NCBI RefSeq assembly: GCF_013297935.1
Contig: NZ_JAAFIX010000009.1
Span: 62,001-126,000, forward strand
Direction of reading: 5' to 3'
Length of the DNA stretch: 64,000 nt
Source of the DNA: Rhodoferax sp.
GTDB taxonomy: Bacteria; Pseudomonadota; Gammaproteobacteria; Burkholderiales; Burkholderiaceae_C
The position numbers and the translations under genes were made by a program. The notes under the pieces are model-generated. The model did not search any database. It worked only from the letters and a program-made list of their open reading frames with translations, and was not told the origin of the DNA. Positions 14,954-42,985 of this stretch are shown here, one piece after another. How positions within the stretch are numbered: position 1 is the first letter of the stretch; each line of letters opens with the position of its first letter.

Positions 14954-15012
14954 GCCTAATTGGCCCCTAGCCCATTCACACTATACGCCAGTAGCTCCTG
15001 AATTAGTAGCAA
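14954..15012 (-). repeat. Dispersed 59-bp repeat, copy 1
   Basis: Reads on the minus strand from TTGCTACTAATTC to CCAATTAGGC. It starts at the base after the TAA stop of the MocR-type gene and fills the spacer to the HDOD gene. It aligns without gaps to the other nine copies (AGCT at 17-20, GGCTA at 41-45). Confidence 0.85.
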
Positions 15013-16476
15013 TTAACCCCTGCCCACCTGCTCATCCCGCAGCCGTGCAAACGTCTTCCAGAACTGCGCTTCCTGGGTGCTGGCAAAGTTGATGCGCATC
15101 AGGCTGCTGGGCGTGCGCCTTGCATGAAACAGGGCACCGGGCGCCAGCAGGTAGCCCTCGTCGAGCATGCGCTGGCTCAGGGCATCGGTGTCCACCCCGG
15201 TTTCTACCCACCCAAACAGGCCCACCGGGTCCGAGGCAAAGGTGCAGCCATGCGCCAGCGCCAGCTTCACGCTGCGGGCGCGGGCGGCGTCGAGCTGGGT
15301 GCGAATGCGCTCGGCGTGCCGGCGCAGCTGGCCCTGGTCTATGCACCAGGCCATGGCTTTTTCCAGCAAAGCGGGCGTGGTCAGGGTGGAGAGCAGCTTG
15401 GTGTCGAGCAAGCGCTCGGCCAAGTCTTTGGGTGCCGCCAGGTAGCCCACGCGCCAGTTGGGCGCCAGAATCTTGGCAAACCCCGCCACATAAATGGTAC
15501 GCTGCAGCCCGTCCAGTGCGCACAAGCGGGTGGCGTGCTCGGGGGCAAAGTGGCTGTAGGTGTCGTCTTCAACAATGTGAAAGTCGTGCTGATTCGCCAG
15601 CTGCAAAATGCGGTAGGCACTGCTGGGCGAGAGGCAAAAACCCGTGGGGTTGTGGAACACGCTCACGCTCACAAACAGCTTGGGGCGGTGCACCTCGCAG
15701 TACCGGGCCATCACATCCAGGTCCGGCCCGTCGGCACGGCGCGGCACCGGCAAAATGCGCATGCCCAGAGCGTCCAGCCGCGCAAACTCTACGGCCCAGC
15801 CGGGCTCTTCGACCATCACATAGTCACCCGCTTGCAGCAGGGTGCGGCTCACCACATCGAGCGCATGGGTAGCGCCCATGGTCGTGATGATCTGCTCCGG
15901 CGCGGCGTGCACCGCCAGCCCCGCCAACTTGGTGGACAGCGCCCGGCGCAGCCCGATGTCACCGGCCGGCTCACCGTATTGCAACGAAAACGCGTTCAGC
16001 GCCTCCACACTGCAACTGCGGCGCACCGCGGTGGCCAAAAAAGTAGTCTCCAGCCACTCCTTGGGCAGCACACCCATGCCGGGCTGCGGCTTGTTGCTCA
16101 CGCCATGGAACATGCCGCGTATCAGCGCAGTGGCGTTGAGCGGCGCGCGCTGGCGGGGCATGGTGAGCATCAAGCTGGCCCCCTCAGCGCCCGGCTCACT
16201 TGCTCCTGAAATAATAGCTACTCGCGCAATATCTACTTGGGCTAGAGGCATATCTCGCACATAAAACCCGCGGTTGCGGCGCGCTTCGATCAGACCTTGC
16301 GCCAGCAACTGGTCATACGCGGCCACCACGGTGGACGGGCTCACCTTCTGCTGCTGTGCGCACAGGCGCACTGAGGGCAGGCGCGCGCCCGGCGCCAGCA
16401 ATCGGTCGCGAATGCGCTGGGCGAACACGGTGCACAGCTGCTCAGCCAGGGTCTGGGCGGCGGTTTTCATGAGCAT
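15013..16476 (-). CDS. MocR-type regulator (GntR helix-turn-helix fused to aminotransferase fold)
   Basis: A 487-aa PLP-dependent transcription factor. Residues about 1-75 are a GntR winged helix (GARLPSVRLCAQQQKVSPST, VAAYDQLLAQGLIEARRNRG); residues about 130-480 are a fold-type I aminotransferase with the PLP lysine in GFAKILAPNW (Lys335 from this start). MocR proteins sense a PLP-reactive ligand and control adjacent genes. Here the divergent neighbour is an EamA exporter heading a nine-gene train. ATG at 16476 (MLMKT) has AGG upstream; ATG at 16470 is also possible. The interdomain linker (VDIARVAIISGAS) is encoded by repeat copy 2 read antisense. Confidence 0.88.
   Translation of the reverse strand: MLMKTAAQTLAEQLCTVFAQRIRDRLLAPGARLPSVRLCAQQQKVSPSTVVAAYDQLLAQGLIEARRNRGFYVRDMPLAQVDIARVAIISGASEPGAEGASLMLTMPRQRAPLNATALIRGMFHGVSNKPQPGMGVLPKEWLETTFLATAVRRSCSVEALNAFSLQYGEPAGDIGLRRALSTKLAGLAVHAAPEQIITTMGATHALDVVSRTLLQAGDYVMVEEPGWAVEFARLDALGMRILPVPRRADGPDLDVMARYCEVHRPKLFVSVSVFHNPTGFCLSPSSAYRILQLANQHDFHIVEDDTYSHFAPEHATRLCALDGLQRTIYVAGFAKILAPNWRVGYLAAPKDLAERLLDTKLLSTLTTPALLEKAMAWCIDQGQLRRHAERIRTQLDAARARSVKLALAHGCTFASDPVGLFGWVETGVDTDALSQRMLDEGYLLAPGALFHARRTPSSLMRINFASTQEAQFWKTFARLRDEQVGRG
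16200..16258 (+). repeat. Dispersed 59-bp repeat, copy 2, inside the MocR-type gene
   Basis: Begins TTGCTCCTGAAATAATAGCT. It lies inside a coding sequence, antisense to it, and is translated in the linker between the DNA-binding and aminotransferase domains. Confidence 0.85.
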
Positions 16477-16518
16477 GGAGAGCCTGCTTTCAAGGTGGTG
16501 TAACGGCCATGCCAGCAA

Positions 16519-16559
16519 TACAGTTTGCCGACTGTTTAGCAAAACTGTACTGCAACTGT
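16519..16559. promoter_or_regulatory. Candidate MocR operator
   Basis: In the 110-bp divergent spacer, TACAGTTT (16519-16526) and AAACTGTA (16542-16549) form a perfect 8-bp inverted repeat 23 bp apart. ACTGT also recurs directly at 16531, 16544 and 16555. MocR dimers commonly bind such combined direct and inverted repeats next to their own promoter, so this is the likely operator for both directions. Confidence 0.6.
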
Positions 16560-16586
16560 GCTGTTTTTCAAAGTACATTGATTCCC

Positions 16587-17540
16587 ATGAATTCCCAAAA
16601 CGAAACACGTGGCCTCTGGCTGGGCCTGCTGGGTGTGGCCATCTTTGCCATCACCCTGCCCATGACCCGCCTGGCCACCGGCACCGCCGACGCGCCCCAG
16701 CTCTCGCCCTGGTTTGTGACTATGGCGCGGGCGGCGCTGGCGGGCGGTTTGTCGATCGTGTTTTTGCTGGCCACGCGCTCCCGCTGGCCCACCGCGACCG
16801 AGTGGCGGCCGCTGGCGGTGGCCACGCTGGGCAATGCGCTGGGTTTCCCGCTGCTCATCGGTTACGCGCTGCGCACCATCAGCGCCAGCCATGCGGCCGT
16901 CATCATCGCCTTGCTGCCGTTGGCAACGGCCGTGGTGGCCGCGCTGGTCATGCACCAGCGCGCACGGCTGGGCTTCTGGCTGAGTGCCGTTATCGGTGCG
17001 GCACTGGTGGTGGGCTTTTCGCTCTACCGCGCCATGCAGCACAGCACCGACCTGGCGCTGGAGTGGGGCGATGTGCTGATGCTAGGCGCCGTGGTGTCTG
17101 CTGCACTGGGCTATGTGTATGGCGCCAAGGTCACCCCCACGCTGGGCGCCGAGCAGGTGATTTGCTGGGTGTGCGTGCTGGCCTTGCCGGTGACCTTGCC
17201 CGGCACCTGGCTCACCTGGCCCGAGCACAGTGTGCACACCACCTCCTGGTGGGCGCTGGGCTATGTGGGCGTGTTTTCTATGTGGGCGGGCTTTTTTGCC
17301 TGGTACCGCGGACTGGCGCTGGGCGGCACGCTCAAAGTCAGCCAGGTGCAGCTGCTGCAGCCGTTCTTGAGCATTCTGGCGGCAGTGCCCTTGTTGGGCG
17401 AGTCGCTGGACATGGTGACCCTGGGCTTTGCCCTGGCTGTAGTGGCCACCGTGTTCACCGGCAAGCGCTTTGCGGTCTCGGCACCGGCTGGCACCGCGGT
17501 GACCCCGCCTGCGCCGCGCTCCACCGGAGCCACCGCATGA
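16587..17540 (+). CDS. EamA/DMT-family inner-membrane transporter
   Basis: A 317-aa, very hydrophobic protein with about ten membrane helices in two halves, as in the drug/metabolite transporter (EamA) family. Recognisable parts are LLIGYALRTISASHAAVIIA in the first half and LKVSQVQLLQPFLSILAAV in the second. Such proteins usually export amino acids or other metabolites; the substrate is unknown. The ATG at 16587 is chosen because it gives a normal N-terminus. It is divergent from the MocR-type regulator and overlaps the LysE gene by four bases (ATGA), so it is probably the first gene of the operon. Confidence 0.87.
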   Translation: MNSQNETRGLWLGLLGVAIFAITLPMTRLATGTADAPQLSPWFVTMARAALAGGLSIVFLLATRSRWPTATEWRPLAVATLGNALGFPLLIGYALRTISASHAAVIIALLPLATAVVAALVMHQRARLGFWLSAVIGAALVVGFSLYRAMQHSTDLALEWGDVLMLGAVVSAALGYVYGAKVTPTLGAEQVICWVCVLALPVTLPGTWLTWPEHSVHTTSWWALGYVGVFSMWAGFFAWYRGLALGGTLKVSQVQLLQPFLSILAAVPLLGESLDMVTLGFALAVVATVFTGKRFAVSAPAGTAVTPPAPRSTGATA

Positions 17541-18157
17541 GCCCCGACACGCTCCTAGCCGCTGGCCTGTTTGCAGTCGTCAGCTCCGTCACGCCGGGCC
17601 CCAACAACACTATGCTCATGGCCTCGGGGGTGAACTTCGGGTTTCGCCGCTCGCTGCGCCACCTGTGGGGGGTGAACCTGGGCTTTACCTTCATGCTGCT
17701 GTGCGTGGGCCTGGGGCTGCACTCGGTGTTGGACCAGTTTCCCCAGTTTTACGACGTACTGCGCTATGCGGGCTCTGCCTACATGCTCTGGATTGCCTGG
17801 CAACTGGCCCGCACGCAGCCTGCCGCACCGGCCGAAACCGGCAACACAGGTCAAGCGCCCACAGCCGCGCAGCCCATGGGCTTTTTTGCAGCGGCCGCTT
17901 TCCAGTGGATCAACCCCAAAGCCTGGGTGATGGCCGTGACCTGCATGAGCACGTATTTGTCTGCCACCGCCGGTTGGGCGCAGGTGGCCTTGTTAGCCGG
18001 GCTTTTTATGCTGCTAGGTGCGCCCTGCTCGGCGTTTTGGGTGGGCTTCGGCCAAGCCATGCGCGGCCTGCTGCAAGACCCGCTGCGCCTGCGCATCTTC
18101 AACATCACCATGGCGCTGGCCCTGGTGGCGTCGCTTTACCCTATGCTGATAATTTGA
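17537..18157 (+). CDS. LysE-family amino acid exporter
   Basis: A 206-aa membrane protein of the LysE/RhtB family. The N-terminal signature SSVTPGPNNTMLMASGVNFG is diagnostic, and about six hydrophobic segments follow (GFTFMLLCVGLGLHSVL, VALLAGLFMLLGAPCSAFWV). The family exports amino acids such as lysine, threonine or homoserine. It overlaps the EamA gene stop by four bases and is followed after 10 bases by the cupin gene, so two different exporters are translated in tandem. Confidence 0.9.
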   Translation: MSPDTLLAAGLFAVVSSVTPGPNNTMLMASGVNFGFRRSLRHLWGVNLGFTFMLLCVGLGLHSVLDQFPQFYDVLRYAGSAYMLWIAWQLARTQPAAPAETGNTGQAPTAAQPMGFFAAAAFQWINPKAWVMAVTCMSTYLSATAGWAQVALLAGLFMLLGAPCSAFWVGFGQAMRGLLQDPLRLRIFNITMALALVASLYPMLII

Positions 18158-18167
18158 AAGCCGAACC

Positions 18168-18497: not shown

Positions 18498-18546
18498 GTG
18501 AACCTTGAACACTGAAAAAACGACACTGAATCCCTCTGGAGCTTTT

Positions 18547-19773: not shown

Positions 19774-19777
19774 CACC

Positions 19778-20401
19778 ATGGCGGTCCATATCTGGGGGCG
19801 CCTGAGTTCGCTCAACGTACGTAAAGTGGTGTGGGCCGCGCAGGAAACCGGTGTGGCCTTCACCCGCAGCGATGCGGGCATGGCCTTCGGGGTGGTCAAA
19901 ACCCCCGAGTACCTGGCAATGAACCCCAATGCGCTGGTGCCCACCCTGCAAGACGGCGAACTGGTGCTGTGGGAGAGCAACGTGATCGTGCGCTACCTGT
20001 GCGCCAAATATGGGACTGCCGAGTTGTACCCCCAGGATTTGGCGCAGCGATTCAACGCCGAGCGCTGGATGGACTGGCAACAAACCACCCTGAACATCGG
20101 CAGTGGTGGTGCTTTTTTGCAGTGGTTCCGCACGCCTGAAGACAAGCGGGACGCGGCCGTCATCGCCAAATCGGTGGCCACCACCGAGCCCGCCATGGCC
20201 CAACTCAACGCGCACCTAGCGGACCGGGCCTACGTGGGCGGCGAGCACTTCAGCATGGCCGACATTCCCGTGGCCTGCGACGTGCACCGCTGGTTCGCGC
20301 TGCCCCAGCCCCGCCCGGCGTGGCCGCACCTGGAGCGCTGGTTTGCCAGCATCCTGGCGCGCCCCGCTACCCGCGGCGTGCTCGATCTCCCGATTTCATA
20401 A
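19778..20401 (+). CDS. Glutathione S-transferase family protein
   Basis: A 207-aa protein with the thioredoxin-like GST N-domain (IWGRLSSLNVRKVVWAAQET; NPNALVPTLQDGELVLWESN, containing the conserved Pro and ES of the glutathione site) and an all-helical C-domain (YVGGEHFSMADIPVACDVHR, the N-capping box). Start at 19778, four bases after the aminotransferase stop. GSTs conjugate glutathione or isomerise substrates; the substrate here is unknown. Confidence 0.9.
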   Translation: MAVHIWGRLSSLNVRKVVWAAQETGVAFTRSDAGMAFGVVKTPEYLAMNPNALVPTLQDGELVLWESNVIVRYLCAKYGTAELYPQDLAQRFNAERWMDWQQTTLNIGSGGAFLQWFRTPEDKRDAAVIAKSVATTEPAMAQLNAHLADRAYVGGEHFSMADIPVACDVHRWFALPQPRPAWPHLERWFASILARPATRGVLDLPIS

Positions 20402-20426
20402 CCTGCTTTTTCTCAAAAGGCTCCTC

Positions 20427-21299
20427 GTGCCCCAGCTCCGCCCCTTCGCCCAAGTCGATGTGTTCACCGCCCAGCCGTATCTGGGTAATCCGCTGGCCGT
20501 CGTGCTCGACGGCAGTGGCCTGAACGATGCGCAGATGCAGGGCTTTGCACGATGGACCAACCTGTCTGAGACCACGTTTTTGCTGCCCCCCACACCGGCA
20601 GCCGCCGCACAGGGCGCGGACTACCGGGTGCGCATCTTCACCCCCGGCGGGGAAATGCCCTTTGCCGGCCACCCCACTTTGGGCAGCTGCCACGCCTGGC
20701 TGGAAGCCGGTGGCACGCCCAAAGCGGCAGACCGCATCGTGCAGGAGTGCGCCAAGGGCTTGGTGCAGATTTGCCGCGACGGCACGCGCCTGGCGTTTGC
20801 CGCCCCGGTGTCGCAACGCAAAAACCCCAGCCCCGGCTTGCTGGCCCAGGTAGCGCACGCACTGGGCCTGACGGCCAGGCAAATCATCTCGGCCCAGCAC
20901 CTGAGCAACGGCACCGAGTGGCTGGGCGTGCTGGTGGACGACAGGCAAACCGTGCTGCAACTGCAGCCCGACCACCCCGCCCTCAAGAATTTAGGGGTAA
21001 AAGTGGGTGTAGCCGCCGTAGATACTGCGCTAGCAGCTACAGTTTCGATAGCAGGCAAGCTGGAGGTGCGCGCCTTTGCCTCGCTGAACGGCATCTACGA
21101 AGACCCGGTCACCGGCAGCCTGAACGCCAGCCTGGCCCAGTGGCTGATCGCGGACGAGTACATGCCCGCCAGCTACCTCGTGCACCAAGGCACCTGCATC
21201 CAGCGCGAAGGCCGCCTCCACATCCGGCAGGACGCAGGCGGCCAAGTCTGGGTGGGTGGCGACTCGGTCACCTGCCTGCGTGGCACGGCCACCCTGTAA
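20427..21299 (+). CDS. PhzF-family isomerase-like protein, first of two tandem copies
   Basis: A 290-aa protein of the PhzF / diaminopimelate epimerase-fold family. FAQVDVFTAQPYLGNPLAVV is the N-terminal signature; the general acid/base Glu48 is in NLSETTFLLPP; FTPGGEMPFAGHPTLGSCHA and EDPVTGSLNASLAQWLIADE are the other conserved blocks. The start is taken as GTG 20427 because AAAAGG lies 6 bases upstream and it gives the family N-terminus. About residues 190-210 are encoded by repeat copy 3 read antisense. Family members isomerise small amino-acid-derived compounds; there are no other phenazine genes here. Confidence 0.88.
   Translation: MPQLRPFAQVDVFTAQPYLGNPLAVVLDGSGLNDAQMQGFARWTNLSETTFLLPPTPAAAAQGADYRVRIFTPGGEMPFAGHPTLGSCHAWLEAGGTPKAADRIVQECAKGLVQICRDGTRLAFAAPVSQRKNPSPGLLAQVAHALGLTARQIISAQHLSNGTEWLGVLVDDRQTVLQLQPDHPALKNLGVKVGVAAVDTALAATVSIAGKLEVRAFASLNGIYEDPVTGSLNASLAQWLIADEYMPASYLVHQGTCIQREGRLHIRQDAGGQVWVGGDSVTCLRGTATL
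20996..21054 (-). repeat. Dispersed 59-bp repeat, copy 3, inside the first PhzF-like gene
   Basis: On the minus strand CTGCTATCGAAACTGTAGCT begins the repeat. On the plus strand it encodes GVAAVDTALAATVSIA. It is antisense to the gene and in the same antisense frame as copy 2. Confidence 0.85.
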
Positions 21300-21345
21300 A
21301 CACCCTTCCTCACCTCATCCCACCTCATTCCCGAAGGCTCCTGCC

Positions 21346-22311
21346 ATGACCGCAGCCCCCGCCCGCGCCCGCCCCTTTGCCCAGGTGGACGTGTTCACCG
21401 CCACGCCTTACCTCGGCAACCCACTGGCCGTGGTGCTGGACGGCACCGGCCTGAGCGCCGAAGCCATGCAGGCTTTTGCCAACTGGACCAACCTGTCTGA
21501 GACCACGTTTTTGCTGCCCCCCAGCCCCGAGGCTGCGGCCCAGGGTGCCGACTACCGGGTGCGCATCTTCACCCCGGGCGATGAGCTTCCCTTTGCCGGC
21601 CACCCCACGCTGGGCAGCTGCCACGCGTGGCTAGAGGCGGGGGGCGTGCCCCAGGCGGCAGGCACCATCGTGCAAGAGTGCGCCAAAGGCTTGGTCAAGC
21701 TCAAACGCGACGGTACGCGCTTGGCCTTTGCCGCGCCCAGCCTGCAACGCAGCACGCCCGATGCAGCGCTGATCGCCCGTGTGGCGGCGGCGCTGGGCCT
21801 GCAGGCAGAGCAGATTCTGGCAGCGCAGTGGCTCAACAACGGCCCCACCTGGCTGGGCTTGCTGCTCGACAGCATGGACACCGTGCTGGGCCTGCAGCCG
21901 GATGCTGCGGCACTCAAAGATTTGGTGCCCGGCGTGGGTGTAGCCGGCATGGAAACTGCGCCAGCAGCTCCTGATTTGATAGTGCGCAGCAACCGGGAAG
22001 CGCGCGCCTTCATCCACCCGGACGGTGCCCGCGATGCGGGTGCCAGCCCCGCGGATGACGACACACCCTCGGTCGAGGTGCGGTTTTTCGCGCCCGACAT
22101 CGGCGTGCTGGAGGACCCGGTCACCGGCAGCTTCAACGCCAGTCTGGCCCAGTGGCTGATTGCCGACGGAGTGGCCCCGGCCCGCTACGTGGCCGCCCAA
22201 GGCACCTGCCTGGGACGTGCCGGGCGGGTGTGGATTGAACAAGACGCCACCGGCCAAGTCTGGGTCGGCGGCAACTCGGTCACCTGTATGGAAGGAAAGG
22301 TCACTCTATGA
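21346..22311 (+). CDS. PhzF-family isomerase-like protein, second tandem copy
   Basis: A 321-aa paralogue of the preceding gene with nearly identical blocks (GNPLAVVLDGTGLSAEAMQ, Glu52 in NWTNLSETTFLLPPS, EDPVTGSFNASLAQWLIADG). It differs by an extra segment of about 28 residues (HPDGARDAGASPADDDTPS) before the last conserved block. It contains repeat copy 4 at the position equivalent to copy 3 in its neighbour, so the repeat was probably there before the duplication. The ATG of the dehydratase overlaps its stop codon. Confidence 0.88.
   Translation: MTAAPARARPFAQVDVFTATPYLGNPLAVVLDGTGLSAEAMQAFANWTNLSETTFLLPPSPEAAAQGADYRVRIFTPGDELPFAGHPTLGSCHAWLEAGGVPQAAGTIVQECAKGLVKLKRDGTRLAFAAPSLQRSTPDAALIARVAAALGLQAEQILAAQWLNNGPTWLGLLLDSMDTVLGLQPDAAALKDLVPGVGVAGMETAPAAPDLIVRSNREARAFIHPDGARDAGASPADDDTPSVEVRFFAPDIGVLEDPVTGSFNASLAQWLIADGVAPARYVAAQGTCLGRAGRVWIEQDATGQVWVGGNSVTCMEGKVTL
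21927..21985 (-). repeat. Dispersed 59-bp repeat, copy 4, inside the second PhzF-like gene
   Basis: The most diverged copy; minus strand reads GCACTATCAAATCAGGAGCT at its start and keeps GGCTACACCC at 41-50. It is positionally equivalent to copy 3 in the paralogue. Confidence 0.7.
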
Positions 22312-23273
22312 ACCCATTGCTCCCCACCCTGAACGACATCGAAGCTGCCGCCCAGGTGGTGTACCGCGAATTCGGCCCCACCCCACAGTACCGCTGGGGC
22401 CAGCTCAGTGCCCGGCTGGGCACCACCTGCTGGGTCAAGCACGAGAACCACACGCCGGTGGGCGCTTTCAAAATCCGCGGGGGCCTAACTTACTTTGACC
22501 GGCTGGCCCAGCGCGGTGCCATGCCCGCCGAAGTGGTGGGCGCTACCCGCGGCAACCACGGCCAAAGCGTGGGCTGGGCCGCACGGGCGCACGGCGTGCC
22601 CTGCACCATCGTGGTCCCGCACGGCAACTCGGTGGAAAAGAACGCCGCCATGCGCGCACTGGGCGTCACCCTCATCGAACACGGCACCGACTTTCAAGAG
22701 AGCCGCGAACACGCCATGCACCTGGCCCGCGAGCGCGGCGCCCACATGGTGCCCAGCTTCCACCCCGACCTACTGCGCGGCGTGGCCACCTACTGGTGGG
22801 AACTGCTCAAGGCCGCGCCCGAGCTGGATGTGATTTATGTGCCCATCGGCCAAGGCTCAGGTGCCTGCAGCGCCGTGGCGGCCAAGCGGGCACTCCAGCA
22901 CAAGGCTCGCATCGTGGGCGTGGTGAGCGCCCACGCCACCACCTATGCCGACTCATTCGCAGCCGGCAAAGTGGTGGAAGCGCCCGTGACCACCCAACTG
23001 GCCGACGGCATGGCCTGCCGCGTGGCCGACCCCGAGGCGCTGGAGATATTGATGGGCGCCATTGACCACCTCGTGCGAGTGACCGACGCCGAAGTCGCCC
23101 AAGCCATGCGCGACCTCTTCGCCTGCACCCACAACGTGGCCGAAGGCGCGGGCGCGGCCAGCTTTGCGGCGGCCATGCAGGAGCGCGATAGTCTGAAAGG
23201 GCAGACGGTGGGGATTACCTTGTGCGGGGGGAATGTGGACTCGGCGGTGTTGGCGGAGGTGCTGCGGAATTGA
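22308..23273 (+). CDS. Threonine/serine dehydratase-like PLP enzyme
   Basis: A 321-aa fold-type II PLP enzyme. The PLP lysine is Lys55 in NHTPVGAFKIRGGLTYF; the phosphate loop is GQGSGACSAVA; the substrate-binding asparagine loop is ATRGNHGQSVGWAARAHG. It lacks the C-terminal regulatory ACT domain of biosynthetic IlvA, so it fits catabolic dehydratases acting on threonine, serine or a hydroxylated amino acid. Its ATG overlaps the stop of the PhzF gene. Its own stop TGA (23271-23273) falls within repeat copy 5. Last gene of the MocR-linked train. Confidence 0.9.
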   Translation: MNPLLPTLNDIEAAAQVVYREFGPTPQYRWGQLSARLGTTCWVKHENHTPVGAFKIRGGLTYFDRLAQRGAMPAEVVGATRGNHGQSVGWAARAHGVPCTIVVPHGNSVEKNAAMRALGVTLIEHGTDFQESREHAMHLARERGAHMVPSFHPDLLRGVATYWWELLKAAPELDVIYVPIGQGSGACSAVAAKRALQHKARIVGVVSAHATTYADSFAAGKVVEAPVTTQLADGMACRVADPEALEILMGAIDHLVRVTDAEVAQAMRDLFACTHNVAEGAGAASFAAAMQERDSLKGQTVGITLCGGNVDSAVLAEVLRN

Positions 23274-23317
23274 TAGCTGCTATTGCAATATCTACGGGCG
23301 CTACAGGCCATTTCTAC
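23259..23317 (+). repeat. Dispersed 59-bp repeat, copy 5, at the end of the dehydratase gene
   Basis: GATAGCTGCTATTGCAATAT and GCTACAGGCC match the other copies; the first ten positions are coding sequence and poorly matched. The repeat supplies the stop codon of the upstream gene (TGA followed by TAG). Confidence 0.78.
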
Positions 23318-23590
23318 ACATAAACCACCACAAACAAGCCTACCGAATTCGCGATTCAGGCGGATAAACTGATCGATATCAACGAAGGCTGCCCTGACAT
23401 CACCGTGTCCGGGTGGCGATATGTCTGATCAGTATTTTTGTTACGCACCGAGTGACAATTTGCAAAACAGAGACGCACATTGCCAACCAGTGCGCGACCA
23501 ACTCTTGCGTGGCGTTGTGTATCGGCGTCGGCTTAGCCTTCGCGGTGCACCGAACTTAAATGCGATCGACGATAGGGTTTTTACACAACG
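23318..23590. other. Spacer without a recognised gene
   Basis: No gene is recognised. The sequence is more AT-rich than the DNA to the left. Two short open stretches look coding-like but have no convincing start: one ending at 23430 (reading LIDINEGCPDITVSGWRYV) and a GTG-started frame of about 34 codons beginning near 23451 (CKTETHIANQCATNSCVALC). They may be remnants of a decayed or rearranged gene. Confidence 0.35.
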
Positions 23591-24292: not shown

Positions 24293-24426
24293 GAAATACT
24301 CGATAGTAGTTTTTTGTATTTTATGGTTCACCAAAATACCCATAGGTATTTTCCGCCTTCGCCCTCCTGCAACACCATCAATATAGATTTTGCAGTGGGC
24401 ATCCCGTCCAGATTTACCGAAGCAGA

Positions 24427-24485
24427 TTGCTATTATTTTCATAGCTACTGTCGCAAACACTACATGGGCTCGGTGCCATTTAGGC
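24427..24485 (+). repeat. Dispersed 59-bp repeat, copy 6, upstream of the histidine phosphatase gene
   Basis: TTGCTATTATTTTCATAGCT, then a GCAAACACT centre and GGCTCGGTGCC. The small inverted repeat GCTAT / ATAGC is perfect here. It ends 13 bases before the next start codon. Confidence 0.88.
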
Positions 24486-24498
24486 TTAAATCCTCCCC

Positions 24499-25167
24499 AT
24501 GGGAAACCTCTACCTTGTACGCCACGGCCAGGCTTCGTTTGGCGCTGCAGACTATGACAACTTGAGCGAGCTCGGCCACCGGCAGAGCGTGCGGCTGGGG
24601 GAGTACTTTGCGGGCAAGGGCTTGCAGTTTGAGGCGGTGATGACCGGCACGCTCAAGCGCCACGCCCAGACCTGGGCGGGCATTGCGCAGGGTGCGGGGC
24701 TCGCCCACCAGCCGCTGGAGTGGCCGGGACTGAATGAATACGACAGCGAGGCGGTGATCAAAGCCATTCATCCCGCGCCGCTGGCCAAGCCCGACACGCC
24801 CGAGGTGTACCGCCACCACTTCCGGCTGCTGCGCGACGGCCTCACGCAGTGGATGAACGGTGTCATCAGCCCGCAAGGCATGCCCGATTACGACAGCTTT
24901 GTGCGCGGCGTGACCAGCGCGCTGGACCATGTGCGCAAGTCGCACACCGGCAATGTGCTGGTGGTGAGCAGCGGCGGGCCCATTTCCACCGCGGTCGGGC
25001 ACATTTTGGGCACCACGCCTGAGACCACGATTGAGCTGAACCTGCGCATTCGCAACAGCTCGGTCACCGAGCTGGCCTACACCCCCAAGCGCCACATGCT
25101 GGTGACCTACAACACCCTGCCCCACCTGGACGATGCAGCCCACGCGGATTGGGTGACCTACTCCTGA
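24499..25167 (+). CDS. Histidine phosphatase family protein (phosphoglycerate-mutase-like)
   Basis: A 222-aa protein starting MGNLYLVRHGQASFGAADYD; RHG is the catalytic motif of the branch, with the phospho-accepting histidine at residue 9. Other blocks are VMTGTLKRHAQTWAGIAQGA (second Arg/His pair) and VLVVSSGGPISTAVGHIL. The substrate cannot be told from sequence; most such stand-alone proteins are broad phosphatases. No strong ribosome binding site is seen, and repeat copy 6 makes up the sequence just upstream. Confidence 0.88.
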   Translation: MGNLYLVRHGQASFGAADYDNLSELGHRQSVRLGEYFAGKGLQFEAVMTGTLKRHAQTWAGIAQGAGLAHQPLEWPGLNEYDSEAVIKAIHPAPLAKPDTPEVYRHHFRLLRDGLTQWMNGVISPQGMPDYDSFVRGVTSALDHVRKSHTGNVLVVSSGGPISTAVGHILGTTPETTIELNLRIRNSSVTELAYTPKRHMLVTYNTLPHLDDAAHADWVTYS

Positions 25168-25227: not shown

Positions 25228-25261
25228 TTGTGCCCTGTGTTGGAACACACCGAGGATCACA

Positions 25262-33828: not shown

Positions 33829-33862
33829 ATTACCGCTCCACTCCACGACCACGCTGCACACC

Positions 33863-34273: not shown

Positions 34274-34375
34274 GCCCGCCGTCTGCCGGACCCTGCACCT
34301 GCTCCGGCGCGGCCATTGCGCCTTGACTTGAGGCAAGACAAAGGCGGCGGTGTTATGAACTGCGACAATCGGTCC

Positions 34376-35912: not shown

Positions 35913-38051
35913 ATGAGCCATTGGTTGCCCGTTTTGGTGCACACCCCCGCCCATGCCGCGCTGGGTCCGGTACTCACCTACCGCAGCGAACAGCTGCTGC
36001 CGGCGGGTACCTTGGTGCGGGTGCCGCTGGGCAAGCGCGAGACCCTGGGCGTGGTGTGGGACGCCACCACTGCGGAGGCGACCGGCGAGTTCGACCCGAC
36101 CAAGGTGCGCGACATTGCGGGCGTGCTGGAAGGAATTCCGCCCCTCAGCCGGGCGTGGCAACAGTTGCTGGGCTTTACCGCCGCCTACTACCAGCGCTCG
36201 GCCGGCGAAGTGGCGCTGGCCGCCCTGCCCCCGCAGCTGCGCGAGCTGAACCCCGAGCAAATGGCGCGCCGCCTCAAGCGCAAAAAGGCGGATGCCGGTG
36301 CCGGCGGAGCCGTGCTGGCCGCACCGACCCTCACGCCTGAGCAAGCTGCCGCGATTGCACAGATTGACAGCAACAGCGGCCCCTTTTTGCTCTTCGGCGC
36401 CACTGGCAGCGGCAAGACCGAGGTCTATTTGCACTGCGTGCACAAACTTCTGGCCGCCGACCCGGACGCCCAGGCCCTGATCATGGTGCCGGAGATCAAC
36501 CTCACGCCGCAGTTGGAAGAGCGCTTCAAAGCCCGCTTTGCCCCGCTCTATGGCGAGCAAGCGGTGGTGAGCCTGCACAGCGGCATGACCAACCCGCAGC
36601 GCCTCAAAAGCTGGCTCAGTGCCCACGGTGGCGCGGCCCGCATCGTGCTGGGCACGCGCATGGCGGTGTTTACGTCTCTGCCCAAACTGCGGCTGATCGT
36701 GGTCGATGAAGAGCACGACCCCAGCTACAAAAGCGGCGAAGGCGCCCGCTACTCGGCGCGTGACCTCGCGGTGTACCGCGGCAAGCTCGATGGTGCCAAA
36801 GTCATTCTCGGCTCGGCCACGCCCTCGTTGGAAAGCTGGCACCACAGCCGGCCGGCTGAGGAAGGAGGGCGCTATCTGCGCCTGCACATGCCCAGCCGCG
36901 TGGGAGACGCCGCACGCCTGCCCCTAGTGCGGCGGGTGGACATGAACCACCAGCCCCGGCGGGCCATCTTCTCGACCCCGCTGATTGCAGCCATCACCGA
37001 GCGGGTGGCACGCGGCGAGCAGTGCATGGTGTTTTTGAACCGGCGCGGCTACGCCCCGGTGCTGACCTGCGAAGACTGCGGCTGGAAGAGCGAGTGCCCG
37101 CACTGCAGCGCGTTTCGCGTGTTCCACAAAATCGACCGCACCCTGCGTTGCCACCACTGCGGCTTTACCGAGCGGGTGCCGCGCGCCTGCCCGGACTGTG
37201 GCAACGTCGACATCGCCCCTTTCGGGCGCGGCACTGAGCAGATTGAAGAACACCTGGCCGAGTTGCTGGTGGATGTGCGGCGTCACGGCTCTGTCACGCC
37301 CGACAAGCCGGAGGGCGAACCGATCCGCATCGCCCGCATCGACGCCGACAGCACCAAACTCAAAGGCCAGCTCGAAGAGCAACTGGCCGCCGTGCACTCC
37401 GGCGACGTGGATGTGCTGGTGGGCACGCAAATGATTGCTAAGGGCCACGACTTCCGCCGCATCACGCTGGTCGCAGCAGTAAACCCGGACGGCGCTTTAT
37501 TCAGCAGCGACTTCCGGGCGCCCGAACGCTTGTTCAGTTTGCTGATGCAGGCCGCAGGCCGGGCCGGGCGCGATGCGTCGCTGGGCGCACAAAGCGAGGT
37601 GTGGCTGCAAACTTTTCAGCCCGAGCACGGCCTCTACGCCGCCCTCAAGAAACACGACTACCCCACCTTTGCCGCGCAGCAGCTCCAAGAGCGCGAGCAA
37701 GCCAACATGCCACCCTTCAGCGCCCAGGCGCTGGTGCGGGCCGAGGCCAAGACGCAGGAAGCGGCGCAAGCCTTCTTGAACGCCGCCCGCACCTTCGCCC
37801 AGACCGAGATGGCTACGTGGGACGGCTGGGCCGAGGCGCTGGCCCAAGTCTTCCTCTACCCCGCCGTACCCATGGCCATCCAGCGGGTCGCCAATATAGA
37901 GCGGGCCCAGATGCTGATTGAATGCCCATCACGCGCCACGCTGCAGCAGTTCCTGACCGCCTGGCAAAGCGTGCTGCACGCCACCCGCAGCCAACCCGAA
38001 TGCAAAGGCCTGATCCGCTGGGCGATTGATGTGGATCCGTTGGCGATTTGA
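35913..38051 (+). CDS. priA: Primosomal replication protein N' (PriA helicase)
   Basis: Superfamily 2 helicase that restarts stalled replication forks, 712 aa. N-terminal DNA-binding part (PVLVHTPAHAALGPVLTYRS), Walker A FGATGSGKTEVYLHCV, DEEH box (VVDEEHDPSYKSGEGARYSA), then eight zinc-binding cysteines (CEDCGWKSECPHC and CHHCGFTERVPRACPDC) and helicase motifs V/VI (GTQMIAKGHDFRRITLV, LLMQAAGRAGRDASLG). Complete and normal length. Confidence 0.97.
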   Translation: MSHWLPVLVHTPAHAALGPVLTYRSEQLLPAGTLVRVPLGKRETLGVVWDATTAEATGEFDPTKVRDIAGVLEGIPPLSRAWQQLLGFTAAYYQRSAGEVALAALPPQLRELNPEQMARRLKRKKADAGAGGAVLAAPTLTPEQAAAIAQIDSNSGPFLLFGATGSGKTEVYLHCVHKLLAADPDAQALIMVPEINLTPQLEERFKARFAPLYGEQAVVSLHSGMTNPQRLKSWLSAHGGAARIVLGTRMAVFTSLPKLRLIVVDEEHDPSYKSGEGARYSARDLAVYRGKLDGAKVILGSATPSLESWHHSRPAEEGGRYLRLHMPSRVGDAARLPLVRRVDMNHQPRRAIFSTPLIAAITERVARGEQCMVFLNRRGYAPVLTCEDCGWKSECPHCSAFRVFHKIDRTLRCHHCGFTERVPRACPDCGNVDIAPFGRGTEQIEEHLAELLVDVRRHGSVTPDKPEGEPIRIARIDADSTKLKGQLEEQLAAVHSGDVDVLVGTQMIAKGHDFRRITLVAAVNPDGALFSSDFRAPERLFSLLMQAAGRAGRDASLGAQSEVWLQTFQPEHGLYAALKKHDYPTFAAQQLQEREQANMPPFSAQALVRAEAKTQEAAQAFLNAARTFAQTEMATWDGWAEALAQVFLYPAVPMAIQRVANIERAQMLIECPSRATLQQFLTAWQSVLHATRSQPECKGLIRWAIDVDPLAI

Positions 38052-38052
38052 G

Positions 38053-38111
38053 TTAAAAAGCGGGCTTAGCCCACATCAGACATGCGCAAGCAGCTACAAA
38101 ATGAATAGCAG
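38053..38111 (-). repeat. Dispersed 59-bp repeat, copy 8, between priA and a small membrane protein gene
   Basis: Minus strand: CTGCTATTCATTTTGTAGCT, GCTTGCGCAT, GGCTAAGCCC. It begins two bases after the TAA stop of the minus-strand gene and ends next to the priA stop. Confidence 0.87.
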
Positions 38112-38113
38112 TC

Positions 38114-38485: not shown

Positions 38486-38546
38486 GGCGCTATTGTGCAA
38501 CGCAGTGCAATGCCACCGGCAAGCCCAAGGGCAGCGGCATATTTAA

Positions 38547-38605
38547 ATGAAATCCGCCCCTAACCCTGGTATCTATTGCGCAACCAGCTACCAAAAACAT
38601 AGCAG
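38547..38605 (-). repeat. Dispersed 59-bp repeat, copy 9, after the AEC transporter gene
   Basis: Minus strand: CTGCTATGTTTTTGGTAGCT, GGTTGCGCAA, GGTTAGGGGC. It starts at the base directly after the TAA stop of the AEC transporter gene. Confidence 0.85.
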
Positions 38606-39595
38606 TTATATACCGACCATCAAGGCGACCGCACCCGAGAAGGTAAAGAATGCTGCGGCGGTGGACACCAGAATGATGCGGGCGATGCGGCCGTTGTCCG
38701 CCCCGAAGCGCTCGGCCAGGAGCGACACATTGCTCGCACTCGGCAAGGCGGCCAGCAACACCAGCACGGTGAGTGCAAATTTGTCGATGTGCACGCCCGC
38801 GCTCACGGCCGACACGCCCACCAGCAATACCAGCAGGGGGTGCAAAAAGAGTTTGATCAGCGCCACCGGCACATATTCCTGCCAGTGCACCTCGTGCGTC
38901 TCGTCGTCCTTGGCCAGCATTTGCGAGCGTGCTAGTACCGCACCGATGGTGAACAGCGCCACCGGCGAGGCCGCATCTGCCAGCAGGCCCAGGGTAGATG
39001 CCACTGGCTTGGGCAGCTCGAGCTGCAAGGCTGAGAACACTGCGCCCAGAAGGATGGACCAAGGCATGGGGTTGGCGGCCACGCCCTTGAGCGCATTTTT
39101 GGCCGCCTGCCCCGCCGACACACCGCCCTGCGCCGGATCGCCCCCCAAGCGCGAGAGCGCGATGCAGAGCGAGGAGGTGATCACCATGTCCACCAGAATG
39201 GTCACAATCGCCGGCCCTGCGGCCTTGGCCCCGAGCAGGGCCACCAACAGCGGCACCCCCATGAAACCGGTGTTGGGGAACGCCGCCACCAGCGCGCCGA
39301 AAGCGGCGTCGTTCCAGCCAATGCGACCATGCAGCGTCACTGCCACCGTGAATGCCACCATCACCAAGGCGCACAGCAGGTAAGTGAGTGCAAGGCTCAC
39401 GTCCAGCAACTCACCGATGGGCGTGCTGGCCCCGAACCGGAACAACATGCAGGGGAGCGCGAAAAACAGCACAAACCCGTTCAGCCCGGGGATGGCCGCC
39501 AGCGGCAACATGCCCTTGCGCGCCGCCAGATAGCCGCAAAGCACCAAGGCGAAAAAAGGAAAGGTAACAGTCAGGATTTGCAGCATGGCCGCCAT
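38606..39595 (-). CDS. AEC (auxin efflux carrier) family transporter
   Basis: About 329 aa with ten hydrophobic segments in two five-helix halves. Family features are ILTVTFPFFALVLCGYLAAR at the N-terminus, the cytoplasmic loop, and AAFGALVAAFPNTGFMGVPL with the conserved Asn-Thr-Gly. Such bacterial proteins export or import carboxylates such as malate or malonate; the substrate is unknown. The start is either 39595 or 39586, neither with a strong ribosome binding site. Its stop is followed directly by repeat copy 9. Confidence 0.87.
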   Translation of the reverse strand: MAAMLQILTVTFPFFALVLCGYLAARKGMLPLAAIPGLNGFVLFFALPCMLFRFGASTPIGELLDVSLALTYLLCALVMVAFTVAVTLHGRIGWNDAAFGALVAAFPNTGFMGVPLLVALLGAKAAGPAIVTILVDMVITSSLCIALSRLGGDPAQGGVSAGQAAKNALKGVAANPMPWSILLGAVFSALQLELPKPVASTLGLLADAASPVALFTIGAVLARSQMLAKDDETHEVHWQEYVPVALIKLFLHPLLVLLVGVSAVSAGVHIDKFALTVLVLLAALPSASNVSLLAERFGADNGRIARIILVSTAAAFFTFSGAVALMVGI

Positions 39596-39830
39596 TGTCA
39601 GGGAAACAAGAGGATGGCCCTTTTCGGCGTGGCATGCGCCACATACCTCGAACTCAGGAGGTGGGGTGTATTGCACAGTGAGGTCAAGGAGGAGCCCGCT
39701 CCGGCGGGCGGGGGACACGAACGGCGCAATGCACCCTATCTCCTGAGTGAGCGAACACCAGCCCTCCATGCGCAAACCGGCAACCCGTTAAGATTGCCCG
39801 CTCCCCGCACGTCAGGTCCTCCATCCCCCT

Positions 39831-41972
39831 ATGTCTGCCCCCCAAGCCAACCACGGCATGAACCCCGCCCAGCAGGAAGCCGTGAACTACCTGCACGGGC
39901 CCTGCCTGGTGCTGGCGGGTGCCGGCTCGGGTAAAACACGGGTGATCACCCACAAAATCGCCCGCCTGATCCAAATGGGCATGCCGGCCAACCGGATTGC
40001 GGCCATCACCTTTACCAACAAGGCAGCCGCCGAAATGCGCGAGCGCGCCAAACACTTGATTGGCAAAGCTGCCAAGGATGTGGTGGTGTGCACCTTCCAC
40101 GCGCTGGGTGTGCGCATGCTGCGCGAAGACGGCTCGGTGCTCGGGCTCAAGCCGCAGTTCAGTATTCTGGACAGCGACGACGTCACCAGCATCATCAAAG
40201 ACGCCGGCGGCATCATCGACACGGCCACTGCCCGCCAGTGGCAGTGGACCATCAGCGCCTGGAAAGGCGCCGGCCTGAACAGTGAGCAGGCGCTGGCGGC
40301 GGCGGAAGACGACAACGAGCGCATCATCGCCACCGCCATGGCCCGCTACGAAGAGCGCCTGGTGGCCTACCAGAGTGTGGACTTTGATGACCTGATCAGC
40401 CTGCCCCTCAAGCTGTTGCGGGACTACCCCGAGGTGCGCGCCCGCTGGCAGAGCCTGCTGGGCCATGTGCTGGTGGACGAATACCAGGACACGAATGCCA
40501 CCCAATACGAGGTGCTGAAGTACCTGGTGGGCGACAAAGCCCGCTTTACCGCCGTGGGGGACGATGACCAGTCCATCTACGGCTGGCGCGGCGCCACGCT
40601 GGACAACCTGAAAAAACTGCCGGTCGACTTTCCCACGCTCAAGGTCATCAAACTGGAGCAGAACTACCGCTCCACCAGCGCCATCCTGCGGGCAGCCAAC
40701 AATGTGATCGGCCCCAACCCCAAGCTGTTTCCCAAGACGCTGTTCAGCGAGCTGGGTGAGGGCGAACCGGTGCGGGTGGTGGATGCCGACAACGAGGAGC
40801 ACGAGGCCGAGCGCGCCGTGGCCCGCATCCAGAGCCTGCGCGCCAACGGAATTGGTGGGGGCGTGCCGGACGCGCAAGGCAAGCAGTACAAAGAGTTCCG
40901 CGACTTTGCGGTGCTGTACCGCGCCAACCACCAGGCCAAGCCCTTTGAGAAGGCGCTGCGCAAGGCGGGCATTCCTTACAAAGTCTCGGGCGGGCAGAGC
41001 TTTTTTGACCGGGCCGAAATCCGCGACCTGTGCGCCTGGTTCCGGCTCTGGAGCAACAACGACGATGACCCGGCCTTCCTGCGCGCAGTGACCACGCCCA
41101 AGCGGGGCATCGGCCACACCACGCTGGGCACCTTGGGCACTTTTGCCACCCAGTACAAGCTGAGTTTGTTTGAGTCGCTGTTTTCGTCGTCGCTCGCCAG
41201 CGTGCTGAGCGCCAAGGCTTTGGGCAGCTTGCATGAGTTCGGGCGCTACATCAACGACCTGGAATACCGCGCCCGCCACACCGAGGGTGCTGAGGCGGCC
41301 TTGGCCTTCATCATGGACTGGCTCAAAGAGATCGGGTACGAAAAACACCTCTATGACGGCGAAGACAGCGAGGGGGCAGCCTCCGCCAAGTGGAGCAATG
41401 TGATCGAGTTCTGCGAATGGATGGCCCAGCGGTGCGGCGGCCAGATTGACGACGCTGCCGGTGTGACCAACACCCGGGAAGTCAAAAACCTGCTGGAAGT
41501 GTCGCAAACCATTGCCCTGCTCTCCACCATCAGCGAGCGCGAAAAAGACCAGAACGTGGTGACCCTCTCCACCTTGCACGCATCCAAGGGCCTGGAATGG
41601 CCGCACGTGATGCTGGTCGGCGTGACCGAAGGCATGCTGCCCTTCAAGCTGGGCGACGGGGCCGACACCCTAGGCGGCTCAACCTTGGAGCACGAGTCCG
41701 CCAACGAAGAAATCGCCGCGCGCCTGCAAGAGGAGCGACGGCTGATGTACGTCGGCATCACCCGCGCCCAGCGCAGCCTGGCCGTGAGCTGGACCCGCCG
41801 ACGCAAAAAGGGCCGTGAAATGGTGGCCGCTCTACCCAGCCGCTTCATTGCCGAAATGGCACTGGACTCCGCCACCGCTAAAGAAGACCCCCGCGAAAAA
41901 CTGCGTGCTCTGCGCGCCGAGTTTGCGGCCAAAGCCCTTGCCACAGCTGCTAACGCAGCGGAGAAGTCATGA
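39831..41972 (+). CDS. rep: ATP-dependent DNA helicase Rep/UvrD
   Basis: Superfamily 1A helicase of 713 aa. Walker A LAGAGSGKTRVITHKIARL, motif Ia ITFTNKAAAEMRERAK, DEYQDTN (motif II), GDDDQSIYGWRGA (motif III), LEQNYRST (motif IV), STLHASKGLEWPHV (motif V) and VGITRAQRSL (motif VI) are all present. The lineup resembles Rep more than UvrD, which is usually longer; the split is not certain. It starts at 39831 and its stop overlaps the start of the phospholipase gene by four bases. Confidence 0.93.
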   Translation: MSAPQANHGMNPAQQEAVNYLHGPCLVLAGAGSGKTRVITHKIARLIQMGMPANRIAAITFTNKAAAEMRERAKHLIGKAAKDVVVCTFHALGVRMLREDGSVLGLKPQFSILDSDDVTSIIKDAGGIIDTATARQWQWTISAWKGAGLNSEQALAAAEDDNERIIATAMARYEERLVAYQSVDFDDLISLPLKLLRDYPEVRARWQSLLGHVLVDEYQDTNATQYEVLKYLVGDKARFTAVGDDDQSIYGWRGATLDNLKKLPVDFPTLKVIKLEQNYRSTSAILRAANNVIGPNPKLFPKTLFSELGEGEPVRVVDADNEEHEAERAVARIQSLRANGIGGGVPDAQGKQYKEFRDFAVLYRANHQAKPFEKALRKAGIPYKVSGGQSFFDRAEIRDLCAWFRLWSNNDDDPAFLRAVTTPKRGIGHTTLGTLGTFATQYKLSLFESLFSSSLASVLSAKALGSLHEFGRYINDLEYRARHTEGAEAALAFIMDWLKEIGYEKHLYDGEDSEGAASAKWSNVIEFCEWMAQRCGGQIDDAAGVTNTREVKNLLEVSQTIALLSTISEREKDQNVVTLSTLHASKGLEWPHVMLVGVTEGMLPFKLGDGADTLGGSTLEHESANEEIAARLQEERRLMYVGITRAQRSLAVSWTRRRKKGREMVAALPSRFIAEMALDSATAKEDPREKLRALRAEFAAKALATAANAAEKS

Positions 41973-42985
41973 AGCACCTACCGTCATTTGCTATATTTTT
42001 TATAGCTATCGGCGCATATTCCACTTGGGCTCAAGCCCCGAATGGCACGGATGCTTTTGCCAGCAATGCTGCCGTAGCGGCAGTACCGCCGGCACAGACG
42101 CCGGTGCCGCTTGAAGTGGTCAGTTGCAAGAACCCGTCAGCCACCTCCCTCTCGCGGTTCTGGGAGTTGGAGCCGGCCAGCGACTGCGGCACCTTCGGCT
42201 TGCGGGGTTATCGCCCTATCAGCCTGGCCGTCATCGGGTCAGACAGTGTGAACACCGCCCCCACCTCACCCGCCACAGACCACACCGGCACATTCCAGCC
42301 CTACACCACCAGCGAGACCCGCATCAACCTCTCGGTGCGGACCAAAATTGCGCAAGGTCTGCTCACTGGCGGTGATCCGAACCGGCTGGATTCACTGTGG
42401 TTTGCCTACAGCCAGCAGTCGTACTGGCAGCTGTTTAACGCCGATCTCTCGCGCCCTTTCCGTGCCACCGACCACGAGCCGGAGCTGATCTACATTTTTC
42501 CGGTGAAGTCGGCACTGCCCTCCGGCTGGCGACTGCGATACGGCGGGATCGGCGTCAACCACCAGAGCAACGGCCAGAGCCTGCCGCTCTCGCGCAGCTG
42601 GAACCGCATCATCGGCCGTGCGGGCCTGGAACTGGGGAACAAAATCTCGATCACCGGTGCGCTGTGGCAGCGCATTCCGGAAGACAGCGCCAGCGACGAC
42701 AACCCGGACATCGTGGACCGCATCGGGCGCGCCGAGTTGTCGACGGTGTGGAACGTGGACGCGGTGAACTCACTTGCACTGACCCTGCGCCATTCGCTGC
42801 AAACAAGCGACAGCGGCTCGGTCCGCATTGCGTGGTTCAAGAAAATAGGCAGCGCTCCGGACAATGCCAACCGCAGCAGCTTGCGCTTGCACACGGAACT
42901 CTTCAGTGGCTATGGCGACTCTTTGATGGACTACAACCGCAAGCGCACCGTGTTGAGCGTCGGCTTGACGCTGCTGGACTGGTAA
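41969..42985 (+). CDS. pldA: Outer-membrane phospholipase A
   Basis: A 338-aa outer-membrane beta-barrel enzyme that hydrolyses phospholipids. The active site GGIGVNHQSNGQSLPLSRSW contains the catalytic His and Ser, with the Asn in WNRIIGRAGLELG. The barrel strands end in the terminal aromatic residue (GLTLLDW). An extra N-terminal region of about 90 residues precedes the barrel. The signal peptide (FAIFFIAIGAYSTWAQA) is encoded by repeat copy 10. It overlaps the helicase stop by four bases. Confidence 0.9.
   Translation: MKHLPSFAIFFIAIGAYSTWAQAPNGTDAFASNAAVAAVPPAQTPVPLEVVSCKNPSATSLSRFWELEPASDCGTFGLRGYRPISLAVIGSDSVNTAPTSPATDHTGTFQPYTTSETRINLSVRTKIAQGLLTGGDPNRLDSLWFAYSQQSYWQLFNADLSRPFRATDHEPELIYIFPVKSALPSGWRLRYGGIGVNHQSNGQSLPLSRSWNRIIGRAGLELGNKISITGALWQRIPEDSASDDNPDIVDRIGRAELSTVWNVDAVNSLALTLRHSLQTSDSGSVRIAWFKKIGSAPDNANRSSLRLHTELFSGYGDSLMDYNRKRTVLSVGLTLLDW
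41988..42046 (+). repeat. Dispersed 59-bp repeat, copy 10, forming the phospholipase signal peptide
   Basis: TTGCTATATTTTTTATAGCT, ATCGGCGCAT, GGCTCAAGCCCC. In sense orientation and in the same frame as copy 7; it encodes the hydrophobic core and the AQA cleavage site. Confidence 0.87.

Follow-up and report, generated by a model that had tools for sequence, protein, structure and literature searches.

A dispersed DNA motif of about 65 bp in Comamonadaceae: a probable recognition signal that may work like a DNA uptake sequence

What makes the same short sequence recur, on both strands and inside genes as well as between them, along one part of a bacterial genome? The question is raised by a 64,000-base stretch of Rhodoferax sp. 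(hereafter the window; RefSeq assembly GCF_013297935.1, contig NZ_JAAFIX010000009.1, positions 62,001 to 126,000), in which a sequence-only reading had picked out ten copies of an ungapped 59-bp dispersed repeat. The analysis reported here indicates that this repeat is probably a maintained recognition signal rather than passive mobile debris. More tentatively, we read it as a motif of about 65 bp that is recognized by protein as DNA and works like a DNA uptake or self-recognition sequence.

All ten copies were confirmed in place and aligned without gaps. Their position-matrix scores ranged from 46 to 64 bits (29–53 bits when each copy was left out of the matrix in turn), and the best score of the same matrix among 20 Markov-simulated windows was 11.6. 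Scanned in full and without filtering, the 64,000 bases gave 11 copies at 48.2–57.8 bits, the next-best match reaching 10.3 bits. The eleventh copy, at 31600–31671 on the plus strand, had been overlooked, and the unit proved to be about 65 bp instead of 59 bp. The reported balance of five copies per orientation holds among the ten, and becomes six plus and five minus once the eleventh is included. All 11 copies lie between positions 14,944 and 42,057, as expected, by position, from the claim that they are confined to a 27-kb part of the window and absent from its flagellar, ntrYX and rpoBC parts. Their G+C content is 42–58%.

To define the motif, we combined 90 stretches fetched around matches with the window, which gave 115 distinct ungapped copies. 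Below, G000 denotes this Rhodoferax genome and G117 a genome of another genus. The unit spans model positions 5–69, with the consensus tTGCTATnaaTTTagTAGCTGCTtGCGCAnatTctACGnGGGCTAGAGGCcnATTTGgCtcnaAA. Information content is 64 bits over the 77 modelled columns here, where top-scoring matches are favored, and 49–55 bits in unbiased samples. Positions C8, T9, A21, G22, C23, C30, G31 and C32 are almost invariant (97% or more at 8, 9, 21–23 and 30–32), and positions 12, 34 and 56 are nearly free. Matches scoring 40 or less were left out of the dependency, pair-identity, frame and half-correlation analyses (7 of 115, leaving 108 copies), and copies at locus ends were also left out of the coding-frame analysis (12 of the 108). 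The strongest dependencies among the 108 copies are between adjacent bases: TT occurs 55 times at positions 14–15, AA 33, AT 20 and TA never, and at positions 58–59 there are 87 TT and 15 AA. The half-sites GCT[A/C][T/C] at 7–11 and, inverted, at 23–19 show equal degeneracy in both genomes examined, G000 and G117, and A/T-rich spots recur near 13–17, 35–36 and 57–60, about two helical turns apart. Taken together, these features would suit recognition of the DNA by a protein.

A folded RNA, by comparison, finds no support. The sequence-only reading had proposed a small hairpin with alternative structures; 10 of the 11 window copies were folded and gave z-scores of −1.67 to +0.73, that is, no stable fold. 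Predicted pairs showed no compensatory change in two alignments (11 and 68 copies), and the proposed stem positions 11 and 19 vary with no detectable dependence among the 108 copies. By eye, the unit ends, TTGCTAT and CTTAAA, are not inverted repeats. At a lax threshold, the one copy tested against Rfam had only two chance-level matches beside it, and an Rfam search of the window returned tRNAs only. Four tRNA genes are clustered at 61598–63284 and a fifth lies at 43789, with no motif copies nearby.

We next asked how abundant the motif is and in what state its copies are found. Samples of 400 kb, chosen regardless of matches, contained 66 copies in G000 (about one per 6 kb) and 117 in G117 (about one per 3.4 kb), and their reversed sequences contained none. 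If the samples are representative, the totals would be about 600 copies in G000 and about 1,350 in G117, or roughly 1–2% of the genome. At least 150 model matches were found in each of G000, G117 and a further genome, G007 (the weakest of the 150 in G000 scoring 35.7 bits), compared with none in the reversed sequence of the fetched stretches, so the genome-wide profile scan put forward as a check on the repeat came out in its favor. The length of the copies is nearly constant. A profile search that permits gaps found a net insertion or deletion in 0 of 65 matches in the G000 sample and 1 of 114 in that of G117 (1 of 179 overall), and it yielded no copy in either sample beyond those of the ungapped matrix. 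This constancy holds although the mean identity between copies is only 54–63% and no pair among the 108 copies exceeds 86%. Decayed copies are nearly absent as well. The score distribution is bimodal, with 113 sites above 30 bits versus 7 at 5–30 bits in G117 and 65 versus 2 in G000; solitary 5′ halves number two or three and solitary 3′ halves were not seen. Between −40 and 0 bits, sites were no more frequent in real than in reversed sequence, nor was there an excess in 237 kb of the motif-free genome G035. Copies are single: the minimum distance between them is 134 bp in G117 and 348 bp in G000, and the median gaps are 3.1 and 4.4 kb, respectively.

Comparison of relatives indicated that copies are held in place and that their letters change by lineage. 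Sixteen motif-carrying relatives share sites of an 11.5-kb test region, with coverage gaps and with losses at some sites; in four motif-free relatives none of these sites is occupied. At three non-coding sites, orthologous copies diverge less at high-information positions (0.14) than at low-information ones (0.37) or in the left flank (0.49), in a comparison whose sites were ascertained by the motif itself. Several in-gene sites are common to another genus, namely those in MocR, ProA, Cca, WaaA and a methyltransferase-like gene (several of these names being read from sequence only). G000 and G117 use different dialects: position 30 is C at a frequency of 0.98 in G000 versus A at 0.90 in G117, and at five of five shared in-gene sites it follows each genome's own letter. 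The two halves (5′ and 3′) of G000 copies are uncorrelated, both among the 108 copies (r 0.036, p 0.19) and in the 400-kb sample (r 0.069, p 0.09).

Placement, counted with a simple codon-based gene caller, showed a preference for gene ends and no preferred orientation. In G117, 38 of 117 copies lie inside genes, and gaps between tandem, convergent and divergent genes hold 42, 29 and 8; the corresponding numbers in G000 are 31 of 66 inside genes and 23, 10 and 2 in gaps. Counted per gene pair in G117, 26 of 45 convergent pairs hold a copy, as do 39 of 233 tandem and 8 of 46 divergent ones; the G000 counts, in the same order, are 10 of 50, 23 of 239 and 2 of 50. Orientation relative to genes is even, at 19/23 (G117) and 12/11 (G000) in tandem gaps, and with 15 of 38 and 15 of 31 copies in one orientation inside genes. 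By strand of the contigs as assembled, there are 41 plus and 25 minus copies in the G000 sample, 62 and 55 in that of G117, and 81 and 69 in G007. The 150 top matches of G007 show no replichore strand bias (p 0.73) and are uniform along the genome (Kolmogorov–Smirnov p 0.47). Spacing in G117 is more even than under a gene-aware null model (coefficient of variation of gaps 0.67 versus 0.90, p 0.0003). In G000, counts per 20 kb are underdispersed (0.35, p 0.006), with a non-significant coefficient of variation of gaps (p 0.11).

How does a 65-bp sequence of such constancy fit into proteins? Among the 96 judgeable copies of the hit-based set, 19 are read through by a coding frame, one of them being a weak match in ProA. 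The coding reads use two of the six frames, the hydrophobic one in 4 copies and the reverse one in 15. In the window, the hydrophobic reading contributes a signal peptide or membrane segment (twice in DsbD and once in phospholipase A1), and the other reading yields linkers and helices. Compared with solved homologues, the copies in FolP, LpxB and IcmF align without gaps, IcmF having a 3-residue gap about 20 residues upstream of its copy. The internal DsbD copy is likewise gap-free relative to the protein of relatives, and the N-terminal region of DsbD is variable. Insertion into genes, first suspected on the basis of DsbD and of the signal peptide of the phospholipase, was withdrawn for the length-neutral cases. 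The copies in PhzF proteins sit in a loop of variable length, the MocR linker is somewhat shorter in motif-free relatives, and the insertion length is not constant among in-gene copies. At third codon positions, 20 in-gene copies agree with the motif in 242 of 266 cases versus 67.2 expected, a count that is no independent proof, since selection of the copies was by motif score and a low-scoring ProA match was removed by hand.

The window itself shows the range of settings. The first copy (14944–15015, minus, 50.7 bits) fills the gap between convergent genes for an HDOD protein (stop at 14951) and a MocR-type regulator (stop side at 15013). The regulator gene (15013–16608, minus), assigned from its GntR and aminotransferase domains and orthologues, contains the second copy (16198–16270, plus, 55.2 bits) in its inter-domain linker, and the same site carries a copy in another genus. 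Two copies lie within tandem PhzF-family genes assigned by Pfam domains (PhzC-PhzF in the first) and orthologues: 20985–21057 (minus, 54.5 bits) in gene 1 (20343–21299, plus) and 21915–21986 (minus, 48.2 bits) in gene 2 (21256–22311, plus). The two genes (20343–22311) are 80% alike over 300 bp and carry the motif at corresponding places, so these copies are probably older than the duplication or were kept through it. Further on, a copy at 23258–23329 (plus, 51.4 bits) covers the 3′ end and stop codon of a PALP-family gene (22308–23273, plus), and one at 24425–24497 (plus, 55.4 bits) lies directly upstream of a histidine-phosphatase gene (start at 24499, plus); the latter copy is kept in 13 relatives, its left flank being unconserved. 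DsbD (31558–33828, plus; assigned by alignment) carries two copies. The one at 31600–31671 (plus, 52.4 bits) encodes its signal-peptide segment, and the one at 33369–33441 (plus, 57.8 bits) lies in the hydrophobic segment preceding the thioredoxin domain, where the protein of relatives has the same length. Two copies also occur in one DNA-polymerase-like gene elsewhere (locus L005, at 1499 and 2483). The copy at 38041–38113 (minus, 52.1 bits) starts at the stop codon of priA (35913–38051, plus; assigned by domains), that at 38536–38608 (minus, 48.5 bits) lies at the 3′ end of a Mem_trans-family transporter gene (38606–39775, minus), and the last (41986–42057, plus, 49.2 bits) encodes the signal-peptide segment of a phospholipase A1-family gene (41969–42985, plus; Pfam PLA1). 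At this last site the relative OS-4 lacks the motif.

The motif is widespread, and its presence is patchy. Among 103 genomes of the genus, drafts of very different quality, 42 have at least 49 scored matches, 16 have 1–21 and 45 have none. In the family, 84 of 250 genomes, belonging to 49 of 126 genera, match at an E-value of 1e-5, in agreement with the mention, in the sequence-only reading, of similar sequences in other Comamonadaceae; in a search with the first model, none of 24 genomes from other families of the order matched. Only 8 of 72,556 plasmid records match, seven from Comamonadaceae (Diaphorobacter, Comamonas, strain OS-4, Rhodoferax, two Polaromonas and Delftia; three cover at least 80% of the query) plus one short match in Brachyspira. 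Among 50,697 phage records, the only match was one of 36 bases (E-value 0.5). In IMG/VR, an exact pattern specifying 25 bases matched five stretches on four contigs, and a scan with the other dialect matched none.

Could apparently motif-free genomes use another dialect? For G035 this was rejected: none of 131 intergenic stretches had three or more similar partners, compared with 17 of 148 and 57 of 134 in positive controls. The same test had less data in G032 (35 stretches) and G018 (25). No other dispersed intergenic repeat family was seen in G035. G117 holds other abundant intergenic repeat families unrelated to the motif, for example around GGTCGGAGCCCGATTTCG and CCTTCCGGGGGAAGG (loci L282, L285 and L280). 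Against background windows, the MocR site of motif-free G018 ranks within the top 0.5% and that of G006 within the top 0.2%, but that of G032 does not stand out, and G035 gave no flank match. The faint traces in G018 and G006 (loci L231 and L233) are suggestive only; perhaps they are relics of a lost motif.

The few indels, few decayed copies, dialects and even spacing argue that single copies have a maintained function and are not remains of mobile elements; maintenance may come about by drive or by selection. An even distribution, indifference to strand and acceptance within genes, described as features of uptake sequences in PMC1939737, combine with dialects to favor an uptake-like reading. 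The reader would be a protein, probably multimeric, that recognizes the motif as DNA and not as folded RNA. Motif-bearing DNA would be taken up and recombined preferentially, which would restore mutated copies and spread new ones, favor tolerant places (intergenic regions, gene ends, linkers and signal peptides) and produce even spacing. Each copy would thus be held near the motif in place, so that copies are conserved and homogenized within a lineage as dialects, and lineages that lose the reader would lose the motif.

Known systems offer a close parallel with clear differences. DNA uptake sequences of Neisseriaceae and uptake signal sequences of Pasteurellaceae likewise number hundreds to thousands of copies, in and between genes, without orientation bias and evenly spaced; they have an at least partly in-place origin and lineage dialects (for Neisseriaceae, Frye et al. 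2013, as cited in PMC4212676). Natural competence and hints of selective uptake are also reported within the motif's own family: according to passages of PMC4212676, its member Verminephrobacter eiseniae is naturally competent and shows evidence of taking up DNA selectively, and natural competence also occurs in some Acidovorax. Those passages and part of the Discussion of that paper do not name an uptake sequence. In contrast to the known sequences, our motif is about 65 bp long with 49–55 bits, partial matches are nearly absent and at least one copy was born by gain of DNA.

Several observations weigh against an uptake-like signal maintained in place. The motif far exceeds the 9–12 bp core of known uptake sequences, and under a gradual drive one would expect abundant partial matches, yet these are missing. 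Whether or not the motif is present, nearly all family genomes have ComEC (244 of 250) and nearly all genus genomes have PilQ (100 of 103), so neither gene explains its presence or absence. (The gene with the ComEC match of G000, the match being at G000:C1:395099-395953 and the gene at L306:14223-16724, carries two motif copies, a curiosity under the uptake hypothesis. A ComEA model was uninformative, matching 76 of 103 genomes, none above the cut-off and mostly in open reading frames of about 700–900 residues.) There are signs of copying: the halves of copies are weakly correlated in G117 (r 0.142, p < 0.002), the 108 copies of the G000 set show a correlation between alternating 6-base blocks (r 0.11, p 0.004), and pair identities among the 108 copies spread wider than column-shuffled ones (standard deviation 0.064 versus 0.052); dependence between neighboring bases may underlie part of the block correlation and the spread. 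Finally, DNA has been gained. On Comamonas plasmid pI2, an intergenic copy represents a clean gain of about 60–77 bp relative to homologous operons: the motif parts two genes by 73 bp, whereas in the four aligned operons the genes overlap by 4 bp or lie 10–13 bp apart (a fifth, from Burkholderia, with a 269-bp gap, was left out of the alignment). In this single case examined there is no clear target-site duplication, and the motif end partly matches the replaced letters. Several proteins with in-gene copies are longer than their solved homologues (ProA by 14 residues, PurL by 8, Cca by 6, AroA by 5 and aquaporin by 4). Together with pI2, these extra residues imply that some births involve inserted DNA. 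Given its length, the missing partial matches, the pI2 insertion and the lack of correlation with ComEC or pilus genes, we say that the motif works like an uptake sequence and do not file it as one.

The same gains, the extra residues and the half and block correlations, as well as copy number, dispersal and sites common to two genera, are what one would expect of a miniature mobile element of MITE or REP type that a transposase spread long ago in the ancestor of the genera, today's copies being its survivors and in-gene copies having later been trimmed to length. We consider this origin distinctly unlikely, as it accords poorly with one net indel among 179 copies so diverse, few decayed or partial copies, no closely similar pair, a change of dialect at sites already common to genera and length-neutral copies in FolP, LpxB, IcmF and DsbD. 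Nor does a transposase track the motif. The sequence-only reading had pointed to a TnpA-REP-like enzyme; of 61 genus genomes, 54 have a Y1 transposase match, mostly a single one, whether they are motif-rich or motif-free, and four motif-rich drafts (G031, G067, G075 and G084) have none, leaving TnpA-REP unsupported as the cause. The candidate Y1 gene encodes about 240–260 residues, matches weakly and is usually single-copy (G000:C23:302807-303031 and counterparts); in G000, G001, G007, G034 and G082 it lies less than 10 kb from a PilQ gene. REP sequences are defined by a palindromic hairpin unit, a cognate Y1 transposase and clustered inverted pairs (REPIN, BIME). Our motif resembles REP/REPIN systems with TnpA-REP (RAYT) in its enrichment at gene 3′ ends and its high copy number, but it lacks a conserved palindrome and close paired copies, is unlinked to the Y1 gene and often lies in genes. 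Rickettsia palindromic elements are repeats that occur in frame inside protein genes, as our motif also does; unlike them, it has no constant insertion length, and several copies replace homologous sequence at unchanged length. The beta-proteobacterial repeat element (BRE) is another small repeat of Comamonadaceae and other Betaproteobacteria, mostly intergenic with some copies wholly within coding sequences; in Hot et al. 2011 (PMC3110155), full-length Bordetella BREs are described as 75–91 bp, with a mean G+C of 69%, in variable-number tandem arrays, the highest count being 29 per genome. Compared by description, our 65-bp motif of lower G+C (42–58% in the window), present as single copies in hundreds per genome, is unlikely to be BRE by size, composition and arrangement.

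A serious contender, if on balance an unlikely one, is a binding site for a chromosome-organizing or other intracellular DNA-binding protein, kept by ordinary selection at each site with no uptake drive. Even spacing, both orientations and uniform placement in G007 all agree with it, as do the favoring of convergent gene ends (more than half of such pairs in G117), the scarcity of decayed copies, the shape-like base dependencies with symmetric half-sites, and the rarity of the motif in viral sequence. Selection strong enough to act singly on some 600–1,350 long sites is nevertheless hard to imagine for a function dispensable to close relatives (45 of the 103 genus genomes have no match), and a candidate protein was not found. 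Templated overwriting, in which the element, as single-stranded DNA, pairs with partly similar places and replaces them (as in retrons or recombineering), converting similar targets at the same length and adding net length to dissimilar ones, would account for zero and small positive length changes at pre-similar sites (FolP, LpxB and AroA) and for the pI2 junction. It is quite improbable, however: no template locus or enzyme was identified, and a template would fix all positions alike, contrary to the mix of nearly free and near-invariant ones. A transcribed RNA element (terminator, attenuator or riboswitch-like) could place many copies at gene 3′ ends, but the even orientation relative to genes largely refutes it; with no stable or covarying fold and only tRNAs matched by Rfam in the window, such a role was rejected and has hardly any probability left.

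In the open-licence literature we found no description of the motif; words of the motif, searched as letters, matched only five papers, unrelated by title. Nor do we know of any uptake or chromosome signal sequence of comparable length. At its boldest, the uptake-like reading would make the motif a new self-recognition system in Comamonadaceae, with a many-turn signal of about 65 bp, a protein complex as reader, hundreds to more than 1,000 copies that extend into core enzymes, dialects by genus, wholesale loss together with the reader, and the basis of selective uptake in Verminephrobacter; this full version we regard as doubtful. The motif also fixes codon choice and certain residues in enzymes, among them FolP, LpxB, AroA, ProA and Cca. 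As a chromosome signal, it would point to an undescribed nucleoid protein. As an uptake signal, it would supply the sequence so far lacking for selective transformation in this family, which matters in water, soil and bioremediation; it would also add a third case, independent and very unlike the others, on which to test ideas about the origin of self-recognition sequences.

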